A stretch of 22,792 nt of DNA, from contig JAHBMJ010001175.1 in the NCBI GenBank assembly GCA_018398765.1, positions 11,456 to 34,247 of the forward strand, given 5' to 3'. The stretch is from Chromera velia. Lineage: Eukaryota; Sar; Chromeraceae. Shown here in pieces: positions 5,627-22,792 of this stretch. The notes beneath the pieces are model-generated. The model did not search any database, had not been told where the DNA came from, and worked only from the letters and a program-made list of their open reading frames with translations. Position 1 is the stretch's first letter. Each line of letters begins with the position of its first letter. Both the position numbers and the translations under genes were made by a program.

Positions 5627-5650
5627 AAAATTTTGTGCCGCTCAAAAATC
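5627..5650. repeat. Dispersed short repeat, copy 1
   Basis: AAAATTTTGTGCCG followed directly by CTCAAAAATC. The 14-mer GCCGCTCAAAAATC (5637-5650) recurs exactly at 8428-8441, and a diverged copy GTTGCTCAAAAATC lies at 8534-8547. The copies at 5627 and 8534 are both followed by an ATTCTTGA/AATCTTAA word, and here that word opens the 33-bp minisatellite. This points to one repeat family spread through the gene-poor stretch. Confidence 0.65.
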
Positions 5651-5654
5651 TATT

Positions 5655-5852
5655 CTTGAAAGGCCGCGCCGCAGGCGCGGCCTATATCTTGAAAAGCCGC
5701 ACCGCAGGCGTTGCCTAAGTCTTGAAAAGCGGTGCCGCAAGCACGGCCTATATCCTAAAAAGCCATGCCGCAGGCGTGGCCTATGTCTTGAAAAGCCACG
5801 CTGCATGAAAGGCTTATATCTTAAAAAAAAATGTTATATACATGGCCTAGGC
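5655..5852. repeat. 33-bp tandem minisatellite whose units are hairpins (6 copies)
   Basis: Six units of exactly 33 bp start at 5655, 5688, 5721, 5754, 5787 and 5820, each opening with CTTGA, CCTAA or CTTAA followed by an A-run and closing with a CCTATAT-like block. The middle of each unit is an inverted repeat around a GCA loop. In unit 1, GGCCGCGCC pairs perfectly with GGCGCGGCC. Unit 4 keeps GCCATGCC against GGCGTGGC with one G-U type pair. Units 5 and 6 are degenerate and A-rich. Copies decay in order from left to right. Confidence 0.85.
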
Positions 5853-6828
5853 CTTAAAATATCTCAAAAAACCATCAAATTTAACTATAGAGCTTAGCAC
5901 TCCAACTGGGGTTAGGCTTCCTCTAACTAACTATCTAACTAACTATAATTATGAATGAATAAATGAAGTTGGCTTTGCTAGAGTGGAGCCGTGCTCCCAA
6001 CAACCTATGTTCATGCAAGAGATCGTCAATCACTCAACTCTAGAGATAAGGCTAAGCGCGAGATCCCCTGAAGTGCTCGCTTGGTGAGCTCACAAGCAGT
6101 ATGCGCATTGGAGGTGGCAATAGAAGACTCGAACAGAAGAAGAAAAGGTCGCGTTCATACAGAAACAGGCGTGCACAGTGAGTAACAAAGATTGCAAACG
6201 GCTCTGCATGCTTCATATGGATCGACTTGTAAAGCCAAAAGCAGCATCTTCCTCGCTTCTGTTTCGGCTGCATCCGGTCCCTCAATTCCTTTTCTCTGAA
6301 TCCTTTGCTTCACTTTCTTTCCCTCTACTACTTTGTTTAGTTTATTTCTTGCTTCTACCCAATTGGAACATACTGAAAGCCGGTGCTAGAGATCATCAAT
6401 TTTTCTTCTATTTGAACAACCCTCTGCCAGACAAAACACCTCTCCTGGAGAGTTGGCCCCCCCCGTCAGACCCTTCCGATTTAGTGTCAATGCCCTTAGG
6501 AGTGGCTTAATCTTCTCACATAAGGCACTTCTCGGCAGACTGGACATCCGTACCTTGGGGCCATTCTTTAAAGATAAAAGAAATAGAGAAGAACGTGAAG
6601 AAGACGGAAGAGCTCTCTGTAGTCTTGATAAAGAGGCAGACAGGGGGAAGTTGCCCCTTTCTTCCCTGTCTCCCCTTTTCATGCATTCCATTCCCCAAGC
6701 ATAAACAAATTCCCCTTTGGGGCCCGTCTTTCTGAGCTTTGGACAGGGAGAGACGTCAAAAAGTTAAGGCCTGCCCATCTGAACAGACCATTGACGGCTC
6801 GTCTTTGCTTCTGCCCCGCTGGTCCCTT
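5853..6828. other. Non-coding stretch, no gene seen
   Basis: AT-rich at 5853-5990 with short TAACTAAC repeats, then mixed sequence. Small frames at 6052-6285, 6178-6510 and 6386-6704 overlap each other on both strands and contain no motif I recognise. The right end (about 6765-6828) may be the frameshifted tail of the LINE pseudogene that follows on the minus strand. Confidence 0.4.
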
Positions 6829-7680
6829 CTATGAATTCAAAAGAGCCTGAGGAATACGGAGATGCAAACGGCTAAGTGCAATCCAGAATGAAGCAAAACG
6901 AGCATACAAAAGCATGCGAGCAAACATTAAATTAACAGACAAAAGAGAGGGTATACGCAAACTCCTGACCAGAAGTCGGGCTGCCCATCGAACAAACCGG
7001 AGCCGTAAGTTATCAATCGCCTCCCAGTCTCCCTGTCTTATCGGAAAGCACTCCAGGCTATAGAGTGCCACCGGCTCCCAGCACACCTTCAGCAGCTGCA
7101 TCTTTTCCCCGAGAGGCAACCCAGACAGACTCACAGCTAGACTAATCACCGCCCCCATTGCAAGCTCTGCACTGCGTAGGCATGCTTCAATCGACCAAGT
7201 CAAATCCCCTCCCTCAAACAGAAGGCAACCCAAATATTTGTACTGATCATACCAGTCTACTTCCTTCCCTTGGTATAAAATCATGCCGTTACAGTCCTTA
7301 CGGTATTTATAAAGACGCAGGACCTTGGTCTTCTTCAGATTGACATTCAACCCCCACTTTCCGCAATACCCCTCCAGGGCATCGAATTTTGCTTGGAGGT
7401 CGGCTGCTGAGTATTAGTTATGCGCACGTTTATCGCTGGCGCCTATACTTCCCAAACTGGCCCCAGCAAGGTGAACCCCCTCCGTTTCCTTTCCATCTCC
7501 CCGTTTTCCTTTCTGAATTTCATCATGCAGGTCATTAATGAATAATAGAAAAAGCGACGGGGATAACGCATCACCTTGCTTAACCCCTGCTCCCTCCGGG
7601 AATAGAGCCAAGTCCCCATCGACTCTCGCTTTCACGCCTCTATGATTGATGCAATTATCAACAGATCTCTCTTCTCTATT
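6829..7680 (-). pseudogene. LINE-type (non-LTR) reverse transcriptase fragment, catalytic box replaced
   Basis: On the minus strand the sequence reads as the palm and thumb of a non-LTR retrotransposon RT. GVKQGDALSPSLFLLFINDL (about 7590-7530) is the family's GxxQGxxLSPxLFxxxxNDL block. Downstream ADLQAKFDALEGYC and W-G-L-N-V-N-x-KKTKV (about 7405-7320) match the region just after the (Y/F)xDD box, followed by YKYLGCLLFEGGDL and a connection region to a stop at 6829. The aspartate box expected between the two blocks is absent. In its place stand nine codons (7414-7440) ending in TAA, identical to part of OTC intron 2. Both flanks remain in one frame. A further +1 shift and stops occur above about 7680. 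No endonuclease or ORF1 is visible, so this is a dead 5'-truncated copy. Confidence 0.85.
7414..7440. repeat. 27-bp exact repeat, copy A (inside LINE pseudogene)
   Basis: The plus-strand sequence TTAGTTATGCGCACGTTTAT and the seven bases after it are identical to 9898-9924. The match ends at the first flanking base on both sides. In the minus-strand LINE frame it equals exactly nine codons, the last a TAA stop. Confidence 0.9.
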
Positions 7681-8398
7681 CCCTCAGCCTGCAGCTTTAC
7701 CATACAAAATATGATTAAAAAATATATATCATATAAAAAACTACAAAAATCAGCAATACTTTTACTAATTTCATCAGTGATGCATGAATAAATTATTCAT
7801 GCATTCATCCGACATTCAATCTAACGTATCATTCACTGTTTAAATCCTCAGGGCCGGAATGTGTAAAGTTATAAAGAGAAAAGAGGATTGAACAAGCAAT
7901 ATACAAATTCAAAGGAAGTACTCATCTAAGAGCAGATGCTTAGTCTGTCACGTGATACCAGTTAGAAGCTTGGTATATGAAGGTCCAACAGAAACAGTAA
8001 TAGAAATACAACATTTGAGAGAGACAATGGGAGGATCCAAAAGGAATTGGCAAGAGAAAGTGACCAACGCACATTCAATTTTTTTTTTTCTCCTTGTTGC
8101 ACGGCAGCAGATTCGTGAACGTACGTTCAGATTTTTTTTTCTGAATTTCATATACGTGACACACCTGAACAACATGTGATATACCCCTTGCATGACTCGC
8201 GGCTGCGACTGCACTGCCCTCTGAGATATTGCGTAGTTGCCCTCCAAGCCTGCACGTCGTTGCCGGGGCTTACTGGGGCTCTATGAATAGGCCCCGAGAA
8301 AACCGCCGTACAGAAACTTTGGAAGCATGCCGGGGCCGTGGTTTCCGGGGCCGCGCGGTGCTCCGTAAAGACAGCGCGTCACGTCGCGCGTGAGATAA
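7681..8398. other. AT-rich to GC-rich transition, no gene seen
   Basis: AT-rich DNA to about 8190, then a GC-rich block (8250-8395) with short foldbacks such as GGGGC and GCCCC around TCTATGAATAG at about 8275-8295, and GCGCG with CGCGC near 8373-8390. I compared the GC block with conserved rRNA and tRNA motifs from memory and found no match. No credible reading frame. Confidence 0.4.
7780..7804. repeat. Perfect 25-bp palindrome (12-bp arms, 1-bp centre)
   Basis: ATGCATGAATAA at 7780-7791, centre A at 7792, and TTATTCATGCAT at 7793-7804 are exact reverse complements. It lies about 100 bp upstream (with respect to transcription) of the LINE fragment, in AT-rich DNA. Confidence 0.9.
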
Positions 8399-8421
8399 AT
8401 TTTGTGCCGCCGGCACAAAAT
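8399..8421. repeat. Perfect 23-bp palindrome inside dispersed-repeat copy 2
   Basis: ATTTTGTGCCG (8399-8409), centre C (8410), CGGCACAAAAT (8411-8421). The left arm equals the copy at 5630-5640, and the shared GCCGCTCAAAAATC follows at 8428-8441. Compared with copy 1, this copy carries an extra inverted insertion of about 20 bp. Confidence 0.85.
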
Positions 8422-8441
8422 GGTGCCGCCGCTCAAAAATC

Positions 8442-8864
8442 CTGAGTTAAAATTGATTGATTAAGGTTTTTGTTATGCATGTCGCGTCCCCGTGTATGAG
8501 GGGCGGATCTAGAAATAATTGTTAAAATTAAGTGTTGCTCAAAAATCGAATCTTAAAAAATGTTTTCAAGAACAGCTTAGAGTGTCAGGGGGGTAATTCT
8601 CTTTTGCATATATAAAACTTTCGTGTTTTCTGCCAGATCCTATAACTTATCTAAAACATATCAAAAACTATCAAAAATAGATGAAACATAATGAAATAAC
8701 TAGAAACAACCAGTGAGGTGTGTATAGAGCCTGGTGCGGGCATGACTCTACTGTAAGGAGTGTGAAGGAGGGATGAGGCTAGGGACCGTCTAAGGAACGC
8801 CGACATGCACACCGCGGCCCGGCGATAGCGCGCGGTGCCGCCGCCGCGATCGCGAGCCGGATGC
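8442..8864. other. 5' flank of OTC gene
   Basis: AT-rich to about 8700 and containing the diverged third copy of the dispersed repeat at 8534-8547, then increasingly GC-rich toward the gene. An in-frame TAG at 8826-8828 closes the OTC frame upstream. No TATA box or initiator could be identified. Confidence 0.45.
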
Positions 8865-11800
8865 ATGGGGACCGCGCTTAGATCGAAAATCACGGTACCG
8901 TCACGGTCTCACGCGGTCACTCCACCAATCCGAAGGGATCTGTTTGCTTGCTACAGCCTCAAGTGGATCCGCTTGTCTGTTTCCATGAGACCCTTGAACG
9001 TTGGCTTGAAAACAAAACTCTCATTGTTCGCCGCATATTCTGTCCTGCTTCTTGTTGCCTCTGTCAGCAGTCTCCTTCACAACAACAGGAACGGAAGTGC
9101 CGCAAAGAAGAAAAAGAAGAGCCCAAAGATGCCGCACAGCACGATGGAGGCGAAAAGTTTTTGTCCGAAGTCCATGGACGAGCTCAAACGAAGTCCTCTG
9201 CGACAGCAGCTGAAGGGGAAGTCCCTCCTCACCCTGTTGGACTTCTCCCCAGAAGGTGAGTGCCCTGAACAATGGTTTATCCGTCTCCTTTCACTGCCCA
9301 ACAGTTCTCTCTCCTGTCCATGCGTGCCTGTCAGTTTTAAAGGGTACCCTGAATGCACAACCGAATGTTATGTCGCTCAAACACATATGACGGCTCATTT
9401 GTGATCTCGTAAGTCGACGCCCTTCGCTCATTCTCCTGTGTCCCTTCGGCTTCCCTTGGAGCAATCACCGTGTGTGCAGAGATCTGGTACCTCATTGAGC
9501 TCTCTGCTGCTCTCAAACGCCGACGCAAAACGGACAGGCAGGACCAGAGCACGAACCCGCTTCTGCAGGGAATGACCATCGCCCTCATCTTCGAGAAGGA
9601 CTCAACTCGCACCCGTCAGTAGCTTGCTTTCACGACTCACTGCAGTTAGAGAGGCAGAGACGGCAGAGAAGGGAGAGCCCATCCCGACTACAGAGAACGC
9701 CAAGAGGCAAACGATCACGGCGGGATACGAGGTGGTGCGAAGAGAAGCCAAGTGAAAAAAGGGGCACGCACACACACAGACACACAGACCGACAAAGAGT
9801 GTGACCGACTGACAAACGGAAGAGCGCAGCGTGACTTGAAGCTAGTCGGTCCGGTGGCCTGGATAGTTTCTTTGCAGTGGGCGGCTCTCAGTTTCTTTTA
9901 GTTATGCGCACGTTTATCGCTGGCTGCAGGTTGTGCGTTTGAGGTCTCGTCCTATGACGAGGGAATGCACTGCACTCGGCTGGACGGTTTGGGCTCTCAT
10001 TTTGGAAAGAAGGAGAGCGTGGAAGACACAGCAAAGGTGCGTGCGTGTTTGAGAGAGAGAGAGAGAGAGAGAGGGTGAGAGAGAGAGAGAAAGAGAAAGG
10101 GAGAACGGGAGGGAGGGAGGGGGGGGGAGAGANNNNNNNNGGGGGGGCGGGGAGGGAGAAAGAAACCAATAGGGAGACAGAGAGCGAAATAGAAAAAACA
10201 AATACGCACAGATTGTCTCATAATCTGACTAGGCGTAAGAGGATGAGTCTCCTCTGTCCGATGTTTGGCTTTGCTGAATTCTCCGTGTGTATGTGTATGC
10301 GTGCACTTGTGCGTGTGCGTGCGTCCAGGTTCTGGGACGTTTCTACGACTGCATCCAATTTCGGGGCTCCAAGCAGACAACAGTGGAGATGCTCTCTGAG
10401 CACTCGGGTGTCCCTGTCTTCAACGGATTGACTGGAGAGTTCCATCCATCTCAAGTGAGTGAGAGAGTGTTGGAGCAGCCTGTAGTTCGTGGATCGATTG
10501 ATAGATGGATCAAATCTTGAGCACACAGGAGGTAGCAGTAGGGATAAGGGGGTGGGATGGAAGGAATGGAAAAAGGGGGGAAAGACACAAAAAAAACAGC
10601 TTGCACCCGAGCCTGTATTGTCTTCCTGTCTGTTTGTTCGCCTGTCAGTCTCAAATTGACTTCCTGCCTTCCTCCCTTGTCTGTTGTGTGCGTGAAAAGA
10701 CAAAGAAGGGAAATTGAGACAGAAAGTCTGTCTATCAAGAGAAACAGAGGGGAAATGTCTGTCTGTCTGTCTGTCTGTCCGTTCAACTAAGAAACTGCCC
10801 TATTTGTCTGACTGGATGGATACACCTCAATTCTGCTGCAGGCAATCGCTGATGTTCTGACGATGGCGGAACACTGGGGTATCGCTTCTCCGGAAGACGT
10901 CAAGGGAAAGAAGGTGAGTGAGTGAATGAGTGAGTGCCTTGCTTATTTCGTTTGTGGGCCCATCCGGAAAGCAAGTGGAAAGGAAGATCCTCTCTTTTTG
11001 GCAACGTTGAAAGGAAGGAAGGAAGGAAGGAAGGAAGGAAGGAAGGAAGAAGATTGAATGGGGTACTGGTTGCGCCAAAAGAGACGAAGAGTTGTGCTCC
11101 CTCCCTTTCATCGATTTGCAGCCCTGGCCATTTTCTGGGCTCCCCCGATCCCTCCACACCAACTTCTCTCTCTTGTTTTCCCTTCCTTTTCTTGCAGGTC
11201 TGCTATGTGGGTGACGCACGCAATAACGTGGCCGTCTCCCTTGCAGTCATCTGTGCGAAGCTGGGCATGCACTGGGTCGGGGTGGCACCTGAAGAACTGT
11301 TTCTCGGTTCCGACATGAAGGAGAGGCTAGATGTCAGTCTTGTCTGTCAGCCAGAACTTCATTCTTCACAGGCCTTCTGCTTCCTTTGGCGCCTACTCTT
11401 TTGAGTCCATCCAGTCTCTTCTTCTTTCTTGCTGGTGGATGAAAGTGATGAAATGTTTTGTTCATGAAACTTAGGAGGACCTCGAACATTAAAAGTGATC
11501 TGAACAGCCTGTTTTCGTGCGGAGAGCTCCTTCAATGCTGGAGAGGCCGGGAGCTTTGCGTTTGACTGTATTAATAAAGGGATTACTTGTCTGTCTGTGT
11601 GTCCTGCATCCTCGATTGTTCATCTGCATGTTTGTTCTTTCATGCAGCGTCTTTGCGAAGAGACTGGAGGCAGCATCACCCTGAGCACATCGGACGACGC
11701 TGTAGAAGGTGCAGACGTGATCTACACAGACGTGTGGGTGTCGATGGGGGAGGAGGACCTGTTCGAGAAGCGAATCAAATTACTGCAACCCTACCAGGTT

Positions 11801-11963
11801 AGTCGGCAGACAAGGCAGAACAAACAGTCAATGCTCAAGTCATCGGTCGATCATAGAGCAGCTCTCTGAATGATTCATGTTCTCTCTCTACTTTCATGTG
11901 CATCTCTGTTTTCGGCGTCTGTTTCGTTTGGTAGAGTAGTTTCATGAATGCATGCCCCCCCAG

Positions 11964-12002
<39 letters not shown>

Positions 12003-12020
12003 AGGGAGAGAAAGAGGGCA

Positions 12021-12053
<33 letters not shown>

Positions 12054-12758
12054 GCGATTGACTCCCGGCTCGATTGCTTGCAGGTTGACTCTGCAATGAT
12101 GGAGGCGACTGGGAAGCCGGACACACTGTTCATGCACTGCCTCCCTGCTTTTCACGATCTCAACACGGCAGTGGGAGTGCAGGTGAGAGGGAAATGGGGA
12201 GAAGGAAGAGAGGATGAAGAAAACGGACTTGCGTTTGTTGAGCCAGGTGGTCGGGCTGCCGATTGCGCGATCTCTTGAAGTCCTTTCACATGATCGTTTT
12301 TTAAATAGTCGAAAGACGATCGGTGTCACTCAAAAGGGTTCTGTCAGCCCTCCAAGAAGCAATTGATTTGCCCAATGTACAAGAAGTATGGGGAAAAAAG
12401 GCAAGGCTGCCTTGACTTCTATGGGGAGTGTGATTCGGTTTCAAAATATTTTTCTGGTCATCCGTTGTGCCCTTTTTTTGGCAATCGTTCTTCTCGCCGG
12501 CTCACACCCTTCCTTCCCTGCGGCTGGTGACCGCCTTTCTTTCTTTCTGCCGTTGTGCCGACCCATCGTCCCCCACTGATCACTTTCCTCTGCCCTGTCC
12601 TGCCCTGCCTGCAGGTGTACGAAGGGTTCGGTCTGAAGGAGCTGGAGGTGACGGACGAGGTGTTCCGGTCACCTCAGTCGGTCGTGTTCGATCAGGCAGA
12701 AAACAGGTTGCACACCACAAAAGCAATCATCGTGGCAGCCGCGTCGCCTGTTTTTTGA
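8865..12758 (+). CDS. Ornithine carbamoyltransferase, bacterial type, nine exons
   Basis: Catalyses carbamoyl phosphate + L-ornithine to L-citrulline + phosphate (arginine synthesis; reverse direction in the arginine deiminase route). Exons: 8865-9255, 9480-9614, 9930-10036, 10329-10454, 10842-10913, 11198-11332, 11648-11797, 12084-12182, 12615-12758. All introns are GT-AG; introns 1-2 are phase 1, introns 3-8 phase 0. The product is 452 residues from the first ATG, or 412 from the ATG at 8985. Motifs (452 numbering): FEKDSTRTR (168-176, carbamoyl phosphate loop), FRG (222-224), HPSQ (250-253), YVGDARNN (280-287), DVWVSMGE (350-357), MHCLPAFHD (389-397, catalytic Cys391) and ENRLHT (434-439). 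These match E. coli ArgF/ArgI and ArcB rather than animal OTC. About 115 extra N-terminal residues include a hydrophobic leader after Met41, suggesting organelle targeting. Exons tile the family from start to end without gaps. An assembly gap falls in intron 3. Confidence 0.95.
9898..9924. repeat. 27-bp exact repeat, copy B (end of OTC intron 2)
   Basis: Identical over 27 bp to 7414-7440. It ends five bases before the acceptor AG at 9928-9929, so it covers the likely branch-point region of OTC intron 2. Confidence 0.9.
10050..10180. repeat. (GA)n / G-rich microsatellite with assembly gap in OTC intron 3
   Basis: GAGA repeats from about 10050 grade into GGGA and poly-G, then eight Ns at 10133-10140, then poly-G again with GGGA and GAGA. 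The gap is evidently caused by the repeat. Real length of the tract is unknown. It lies wholly in intron 3 and does not affect the protein. Confidence 0.9.
10757..10779. repeat. (TGTC)n microsatellite in OTC intron 4
   Basis: Nearly six perfect TGTC units lie about 60 bp upstream of the acceptor AG at 10840-10841. Confidence 0.85.
11008..11049. repeat. (GGAA)n microsatellite in OTC intron 5
   Basis: About ten GGAA units within the intron between exons 5 and 6. Purine-only on the coding strand. Confidence 0.9.
11965..12054. repeat. (CA)n and (GA)n double microsatellite in OTC intron 7
   Basis: (CA)n at 11965-11998 is followed by purine-rich sequence and (GA)n at 12020-12054, ending only about 30 bp before the acceptor AG at 12082-12083. 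The intron therefore has an unusually purine-rich stretch where a polypyrimidine tract is expected, leaving only a short pyrimidine run before the splice site. Confidence 0.9.
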
Positions 12759-13183: not shown

Positions 13184-14003
13184 ACGTCTTTCTACTGTCT
13201 TATTGTTCGTGGCATTGAAAGAATGTCAAGGGGAATGTGGGACGGGTCAAACAAGAAGTGGTCTCCAACCAAAACAACTTTGGCGGTTTTGCCCATTTCT
13301 TCCACGAAGCGAAGCGAGCCCCGTCTTTGCCCCAGAAAAGAACAGGAGACAAACAAAGCCGGCTCGCACACAGACAAGTGCACAGAAACACTTTTTGACA
13401 GCTGAATGGACAGGAGGCGAGCAGACAGGGAAGGACAGGAGGAGGACGAATGAAGACAGAGACAGAGAGGGACAAACAGCCAAGCAGCCCCCAAAGCAGG
13501 CCGGCCTGCTCCTTCCTTCAATTAATTGCATGGCCGTTTGATGTAAAGTAGATTCAACAAAGAAAGGAAGGAAGGAGGAAATCAAGTTTCCTTCTCCTCT
13601 TGCTTCCCTTCTTTTCCTCTTCTCCAGTCTTTCATTCTACTTCCTTCCGCATCTGTACCTCCTCTGAGTCCGAGGACCAGCGTGCCCACCTGCCTCCTCT
13701 TCACTCCCTCTATTCCAAAAGGAGAATCGAAAGACAGAAAAGAAAGAATGGGGCAAGTGAGCATTCAGATAGACTCACCTACTTGAGAGGCAGGCTGCAG
13801 TTTTGGATGCACTGTTGTGGCAGTGAGCGAGGCAACGCTGCCTCTTCCCCTTCTTTCTGGTGGTATTCTCCGAGACAGCACGAACGAAACATCGAAGCAG
13901 CAGAAAACAGACACAAGGTCGACTGCGCTTCACGTGACAGGCGAATGTAGAATGGACGGGTGCGGCAGGGCCCCTCATCTGCGTGCATGTGGGGCGGGAG
14001 ACA

Positions 14004-20728: not shown

Positions 20729-22792
20729 TCAGTAAGGCGTCGAGCGGAATCCCTGCGTGGAAGAGAACCCGCCCGCTCCTGTGTTCCTTGCAGCTGCAAA
20801 AACGACACACACACACACACACACACATGCACATGTACTCAGAAAAAAGAATGGCCCTGCTGGAAAGAAAAGGCGGCGGTTCTGTTCCCATCGACTCTTT
20901 TGACTCTCTCACGAGCACAAAGGCTGCTCAACTGAAGTTCTCTCTCACGGCAGAAACACTGCGCAGGAGGGAAACGAAAGGCGTGTGGAAAAGACACTTC
21001 CAAGGGACAAAAACCGACGGGCAGACAGACCTCCGTACCCTCCCGTAGCATCCCCGGCAGAAGCTGCTTGAGGAGGAGGCTGGGAACTGAACCCCCCGCT
21101 TGAAGATCCCCCTGCTTGCCCCTGCTGCTGGGTGGGTGCAGAAGAGAACCCCCCCCCGTAGGCCCCATACCCAGTCGCCTGCTGTTGCTGAGATGAGCCC
21201 GCTGCACAACCATACCCCGCGTACGTTCCTGAGTACCCTGGGTAGCTGCCTGCGTAGGAGGCGCCCCCTCCAGACTGCTGGGAGTACGCTGCAGGCATGT
21301 GTGCAGAGAGGCAGAAAATACTATCAAAAGAGAGCTCGGGGAAAAGAAGAAAAGACATGGACAGGCTGCGTGACTTCTCTTTGCTGTACAGGAAGTTGAA
21401 GCGTGACAGAGGCAAAAGAAGTTGACACTCGTATGGATGTCTACACCATGCAGACGGAGTACAACCAAACCGATCCGCCCATGCAGCATCAGAATAAGTA
21501 CGGATGACCGATGAGTTACTGAGCTCACACTTGGCTGGCTGAACTGTTTGCCCTCCTTGTCTACGTCCGGCTTTCTGCCTGCCTGCTTGCCAAAAAGGAC
21601 GAAGGCGTGAAGGGATGGACTGACCGCCTGAGTTGGCAGGAGCCGTCTGCGCACCGGCAGGCGTGGGGGCAGCGGAGCTCTGCCCGTACCCTGCTTGAGA
21701 GTACGAATAGGGGCCAGGCGTCATTGAAGCAGCTGCCGGATCGGGGGACCCGGAGGCGGCAGCGGGAGGAGCGGTCTTGGGTGCTTGTTGCTGACCGTAG
21801 CTGCCGTAACTTCCGTACCCTTGTGTGGAGGGCGTGCTGGTGCCATAGCCTTGGCTGTAGGCCTGCTGCTGCTGTGGCTGAGCTGAGGTGGAGTATCCCT
21901 GTGCAGGCTGGCCCTGCTGCTGCTGGGCGGAGGGCGTCGAGGTCGCCCCCGCCTGGCTCCCTCCTGCAGCCGTGCTGCCGTAGCCTGCATAGCTCCCACC
22001 GTAGCCCTGGGACGAGTAACCCCCGTACGCCGCCTGCTGTTGCTGCTGCTGCTGTCCGTATCCACCCGCTCCGTAGCTGCTGTACCCTCCTGTCGTTCCA
22101 GTAGCTGCTGCTGCCTGGTTGGACGATCCTTGCTGAGGCTGCTGCTGTTGAGGCTGCTGCTGCTGCTGCTGCTGTGCAGGCTGGGAGGAAGTTCCTGTGC
22201 CGTAGCCCTGAGATGCGGGCTGGTTCTGGCTTTGGCCTGCACGAGTCGTGGGGTCGTGTACGGTCGTGTACACTCATACACATATACACATGTACGCACA
22301 TAGATTCTTCAGTTGCACAGTCCACTGAGGAGTCGTAGTGTCTTGCCGTATTTAGACTGCCGTTTCTCCTCTGATCGCTGCTTGAGAGAGTGCCAAATCA
22401 GAGTGAGTCAGAGACCGGAGGGAGAAAAGGCTTGCCTTTGAGAAGACAAAAAAGGAAGGGGTGGGCAACAGTCAAGAAACAGAGCAAGTAAAAAAAAAGA
22501 GCAAGGAAGGAAAGGGAGGGCTACGGCTTCCGTTCAGCCCCTTCTTATTTGCGCTCTCACTGACCACTTCCGTAGCTCCCGTATCCGCCGTAGCTACCAC
22601 CACCGTACCCCCCAGCTGCCCCCCCGTACCCGCCACCAGCGCCACCGTAGCCCCCGTACCCCCCATATCCCCCCCCATACCCCCCACTCCCGTATCCTCC
22701 CCCACCATACCCGCCGCCACCGTACCCACCGTAGGGCCCTCCCCCGTAACCACCGCCGCCACCCCCATACCCTCCATACCCACCACCCCCCC
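20729..22792 (-). CDS. FUS/EWS/hnRNP-like protein, Gly-Tyr-rich and prion-like C-terminal part (5' end outside window)
   Basis: Exons on minus: >22792-22565, 22236-21625, 21288-21031, 20793-20729 (stop TGA 20731-20729). All three introns (328, 336 and 237 nt) are phase 1 with GTCAGT, GTCAGT and GTCTGT donors and GCAG acceptors, the last after a (TG)n and T-rich tract. Exon joins keep reading naturally: GSYGSG|QSQNQ, PANSG|AYSQQ, GGYG|AARNTGAGGFSS. The first visible exon encodes about 75 residues of GGYGG repeats. The second (204 codons) has a poly-Gln block and SYGQ-type repeats such as GYGQQQQQQQAAYGGYSSQG. The third continues with SYAGSYPGYSGTYAGYG and GGFSS motifs. This composition is that of FET proteins and glycine-rich hnRNPs, which bind RNA and form condensates. 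No RRM is in the window; it should lie upstream. Identity below family level is not claimed. Confidence 0.75.
20801..20828. repeat. (CA)n microsatellite in the last intron of the minus-strand gene
   Basis: Read on the coding (minus) strand this is a (TG)n tract ending about 10 bases before the CGTTTTTGCAG acceptor. UG repeats next to acceptors can influence splicing in other eukaryotes. Confidence 0.85.

Follow-up and report, generated by a model that had tools for sequence, protein, structure and literature searches.

Short-range template-switch events copy DNA over a short range and in inverted orientation. Microhomology-mediated break-induced replication templated insertions (MMB-TI) were by design sought as inverted copies from templates ≤100 bp away, with farther templates named as a future extension, and nearly all of the lung tumour events described in the available text of that study had some microhomology (PMC8421209). 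Class 2 templated sequence insertion polymorphisms are patches of DNA without target-site duplication or poly(A), and the experimental insertions shown in the available part of the source measure 73-414 bp (PMC5110952). The locus described here lies in a window of 22,792 nucleotides, the whole stretch of DNA that was analysed (C1174:11456-34247, reaching the contig end), in which a 27-base word takes the place of ordinary bases in a LINE copy and recurs, in direct orientation, in an intron of a gene of ornithine carbamoyltransferase (OTC) type.

The word, TTAGTTATGCGCACGTTTATCGCTGGC, occupies positions 7414-7440 and 9898-9924 of the same contig, both on the plus strand and spaced by 2,484 bp, with 27/27 bases identical. 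At both sites identity breaks off immediately at either end, and the word has the same limits in the LINE as in OTC. It is the longest repeat of the window after simple-repeat filtering, the runner-up being a 16-base palindrome. (Perfect palindromes stand at 13495-13510, AGCAGGCCGGCCTGCT, and at 8116-8129, TGAACGTACGTTCA.) The longest repeats in order-3 Markov sequences (n=40) had 13-17 bases; with uniform bases, about 3e-8 such pairs are expected per window, and 5e-5 genome-wide for any pair ≤2.5 kb apart. The exact match with its abrupt ends and the exclusion of chance, both put forward by a first-pass annotation of this DNA, thus held up, and the match is confirmed as true and non-random.

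That annotation had suggested searching the whole genome for the word, two copies being the outcome that would favour local templated repair, and this is what the search returned. The searchable genome (177.8 Mb, 4,040 contigs) holds exactly two copies, still two at up to 3 mismatches, and an 18-mer and a 17-mer from the ends of the word, each with one mismatch allowed, led to the same two places only. A further 10,000 bases obtained from the window's own contig read N, and any source there would be invisible. Because only two copies are present in the searchable genome, neither a common adaptor nor a dispersed repeat family, in which numerous copies would share their flanks, is a likely source; with them fall two options raised earlier, an adaptor artefact and a genome-wide word that inserts near acceptors, one of the two copies lying in a LINE. 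We also rejected, for the word in its exact form, a bacterial or viral source, there being 0 matches in GTDB contigs and IMG/VR.

The copy at 7414-7440 lies within a LINE fragment on the minus strand (5951-7702), a relative of which, L005, has a reverse transcriptase domain (RVT_1); outside the patch the fragment diverges from the family consensus by 3.9% (median 3.0%). Here the word replaces 27 ordinary bases with 27, leaving the spacing exactly normal and the change length-neutral; its first base, a T, is common to the patch and the ordinary sequence. Read on the minus strand, the patch forms nine codons, ASDKRAHN and a stop, where the family consensus encodes YADDLVLFA. A YADD, YVDD or FADD box stands in open frame in 25/29 copies, while 4/29 have none. 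The earlier reading of this site, as nine codons ending in a stop at the place of the (Y/F)xDD box and as a patch rather than a simple insertion, agrees with these results.

We aligned 41 distinct other copies of the LINE on L006 and restricted the comparison of the site to the shared part. Twenty-nine came from a first search, in which 40 places were scored (the window and 39 others, a 41st row being a second piece in C782), and 12 were new from a later search, the later searches having yielded 340 and 336 first-look candidates with 40 scored in each. The word is present in 0/41 of these copies. In all 41 the site has the sequence usual for the family, save for scattered point changes and, in 2/41, an extra 6 or 12 bases; intact copies bearing the same bases, which had been named beforehand as evidence against a patch, were not seen among them. 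Over the shared part, no 24-base stretch of any other LINE copy had ≥7 mismatches, in a scan of 73.6 kb including the window copy (~72 kb for the 41 others) that excluded stretches with more than 2 gaps. A broader patch scan also flagged 14/29 other rows; we attribute these hits to flanks that lie outside the shared part and are not LINE. Judged from these alignments, the LINE site is a recipient of the 27-mer.

The same LINE copy shows other changes. They are mainly C>T and G>A and strand-biased, with C>T at CpA 21 times and G>A at TpG 4 times (raw counts, un-normalised for site numbers), and a 19-bp deletion is present relative to other copies. Adjoining the LINE 3' end, imperfect repeats of ~40 bp rich in GCCGC/GGCCTA were seen by eye at 5650-5810. 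Two other LINE matches are surrounded by direct repeats, of 41 bp and 2.7 kb apart in L010 (at 514 and 3221) and of 94+ bp and 2.9 kb apart in L020 (at 377 and 3273), and these repeats may be target-site duplications of unusual length.

In the middle of the patch lies the bond 7426^7427, at which other LINE copies have insertions of 6, 11 and 12 bp. Among 42 LINE copies there are 12 insertions of ≥3 bp, two of them at this bond, and a genome-wide search with exact flanks found 3 places with an insertion (6, 11 and 12 bp) against 46 without, compared with 0 insertions against 40 without at one control site. The carriers, L049, L055 and G000:C378:31220-31257, have their insertions (6, 12 and 11 bp, in this order) at or near the same bond within the catalytic-box codons. 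The Poisson probability of the bond insertions is 8e-8, or 1.5e-4 after multiplication by 1,752 bonds, and is post hoc. Because of this, because the placement of the 11-bp insertion is ambiguous, and because the motif at the bond, ACAAGACAAG, is a short tandem and slippage-prone, we regard proneness of the patch site to small insertions as a hint only.

The second copy, at 9898-9924, lies in intron 2 of the OTC gene (8985-12758, plus strand), whose nine exons and start codon were called by hand. The joined exons form one open frame of ornithine carbamoyltransferase type; Pfam, run on three of the exons, returned OTCace in two and nothing in the third (35 residues). The word sits between AGTTTCTT and the acceptor TGCAG (9925-9929, from the exon calls), a sequence that also ends 6/7 other OTC introns. 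It had been placed five bases before the acceptor AG; the distance of five holds to the exon, whereas the AG itself is 3 bases away. When the word is skipped, the bases on either side of it (9890-9897 and 9925-9929) join into 13 bases that exactly repeat AGTTTCTTTGCAG at 9865-9877. We tried the same at 22,135 junctions, of which 20,821 were kept after 1,314 low-complexity positions were excluded, and 4/20,821 reach 13 bases: two belong to simple repeats, and the others are the OTC site and the same site shifted by one base. Because skipping restores an exact repeat, the OTC copy may itself also be an insertion, an appearance that is new here and absent from the earlier reading. Since TTTCTT and TGCAG are ordinary parts of an acceptor, this empty-site match is weaker than the count implies. 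Intron 3 of the gene contains a run of 8 N in its G-rich part (10133-10140), apparently an open scaffold gap.

Outside the word, the junctions share 0 bp of microhomology on both sides, the word's own first base being the sole shared one; with one mismatch allowed, microhomology grows to 2 bp on the left and stays at 0 on the right. This absence does not fit microhomology-mediated processes (MMBIR, polymerase-theta end joining). Within the patch, a central stretch matches the ordinary LINE in register, at 8/10 bases for L004 (shuffle p 0.0014; random window 27-mers 0.005) and 7/10 for L005 and the consensus (0.009 and 0.03). Over all 27 patch positions the 8-9 matches to ordinary LINE sequence are unremarkable (p 0.11-0.36) and wider similarity between LINE and OTC is at chance, so the central match may be chance as well. 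The 30-base left flanks gave a score that 2.5% of random windows reach, which is suggestive, but that of the right flanks is reached by 92.5%, and in the 100-base comparison 213-231/559 windows scored as high under one scoring scheme and 222-432/559 under another. We therefore dropped the idea that the LINE and the OTC intron are homologous beyond the word, and with it gene conversion between homologous tracts: the small gene-conversion patch once proposed lacks, in the usual sense of the term, homologous flanks.

Ciliate-type internal eliminated sequences, considered because the host may be an alveolate, have TA at both boundaries; by eye, the flanks here are CTT/TGC and GTA/GCC, and this candidate was rejected. 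So was a LINE-mediated (class 1) insertion, no target-site duplication of ≥5 bp and no poly(A) being visible by eye at flanks GAGTA/GCCTA and TTCTT/TGCAG. A reading of the two copies as a target-site duplication around 7441-9897 was rejected too, because one site lies within an uninterrupted LINE and the other is spanned by the OTC exons.

The match likely has an ordinary cause, be it the scar of a short templated repair or an assembly error at this locus. The account we lean towards, stopping short of calling it probable, is a single short templated replacement of LINE bases in the course of DNA repair or replication, with the OTC intron as template. Within the catalytic box of an old LINE copy the DNA would have broken or a replication fork stalled, and 27 bases of the OTC intron, which lies 2.5 kb downstream, would have been copied into the gap with their orientation kept and the length unaltered. 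Here the OTC intron is the likely donor, and the patch, we think, has no function and is a scar; the reality of the sequence, the role of OTC as template and break repair or replication template switching as the process are inferred. In the wide sense of a short templated replacement, the new bases are found elsewhere in the genome (27/27) and the earlier state of the recipient is known from its relatives and different. We count in its favour the presence of two local copies only in the searchable genome, the ordinary sequence of 41/41 other LINE copies, the 3.9% divergence of the window copy outside the patch (median 3.0%), the insertion-proneness of the site and the in-register match with L004, and against it the lack of junction microhomology, the unremarkable match over 27 positions and the resemblance of the OTC copy to a clean insertion. 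Among the options of the first-pass annotation, local templated copying is the one that fits two local copies, whereas the dispersed word, the common adaptor and the usual kind of gene conversion do not. An assembly artefact, in which one or both copies were placed by local gap closing, is a serious competitor that we nevertheless find doubtful. Gap closing recruits reads by mate distance, which would account for the two sites being only 2.5 kb apart; short-read contigs tend to break in repeats such as this LINE, of which many near-identical copies exist; the 8-N gap stands open ~0.2 kb from the OTC copy; and in OTC, a gene otherwise open, the word comes between the polypyrimidine tract and TGCAG, which would be odd for real DNA. 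The Chromera velia CCMP2878 draft, 193.66 Mb in 5,953 scaffolds (177.8 Mb and 4,040 contigs here), was built, according to the available text, with velvet at k=71, SSPACE, Gapfiller, IMAGE and ICORN (PMC4501334), a pipeline that applies only if the assembly analysed is that draft. The available text of the GapFiller paper states that IMAGE adds errors, which we count for an artefact, gives a default extension overlap of 29 bases, and in that portion describes no case like a 27-base patch (PMC3446322). Both this overlap and k=71 exceed the 27 shared bases, so a simple GapFiller chimera is disfavoured, while IMAGE could still have been responsible; also against an artefact, there is no N at either 27-mer site and no comparable patch in ~72 kb of the 41 other LINE copies.

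With OTC as the home of the word, a single copying event into the LINE accounts for everything but the empty-site match; if the OTC copy is an insertion, OTC is not the ancestral home; and a meaningful empty-site match would imply that a discrete 27-nt unit, its source unseen, had entered both sites, by insertion at the OTC acceptor and by substitution in the LINE. We judge such a unit unlikely. The exact 13-bp repeat left at OTC without the word, the identical word boundaries at the two sites and the stretch of N in the same contig speak for it, and the rest of the contig, unassembled DNA, organelle DNA, RNA or foreign DNA could be its source. It nonetheless requires two hits 2.5 kb apart, the ordinary acceptor parts TTTCTT and TGCAG weaken the empty-site match, and no trace of a source was found with the 17-mer or 18-mer at one mismatch, or exactly in GTDB or IMG/VR. 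Highly improbable, in our estimate, is a discrete 27-nt molecule, such as an oligonucleotide excised in repair or a small RNA serving as template, that was written without microhomology into both neighbouring sites, the splice acceptor and the reverse-transcriptase catalytic box, there at a bond hit repeatedly in this LINE family. Copying in the other direction, from the LINE to the OTC acceptor after a local complex mutation had first formed the patch in the LINE, would accord with the empty-site reading and with a possible LINE remnant in mid-patch (the 8/10 bases in register with L004), but the insert must then end exactly at the patch ends on both sides, without any unpatched LINE bases, and the match of all 27 bases to the ordinary LINE is not significant; we hold it improbable. 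Because a LINE takes part, a template jump of its reverse transcriptase onto OTC pre-mRNA during retrotransposition might come to mind, but it is scarcely credible and was rejected on its orientation, which is wrong: relative to the OTC sense strand, the word stands reverse-complemented in the sense strand of the LINE.

Whether real or artefact, the effect is local. An artefact would be a warning that a splice site can appear falsely disrupted in a draft; a real event would be a clean example of direct templated replacement over 2.5 kb, neutral in length and with an earlier state known from 41 relatives. Templated replacement of this kind would have its nearest relatives in the systems named at the outset, and it departs from each. 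As in MMB-TI, a short stretch was copied, there too sometimes replacing bases of the site, in the available text (PMC8421209); unlike MMB-TI, the 27-base patch has no junction microhomology and its template lies 2.5 kb away in direct orientation, and we count the near-universal microhomology of the lung tumour events against a 27-base templated replacement. Short-range template-switch mutation clusters, as the available part of the source presents them, likewise gather a dense cluster of substitutions from one event (PMC7954356), whereas the 27-base copy is direct and comes from 2.5 kb. Class 2 insertions share with the locus a patch of DNA free of target-site duplication and poly(A), but here the patch is 27 bp, its template is local rather than distant, and in the LINE it is a replacement without net insertion.
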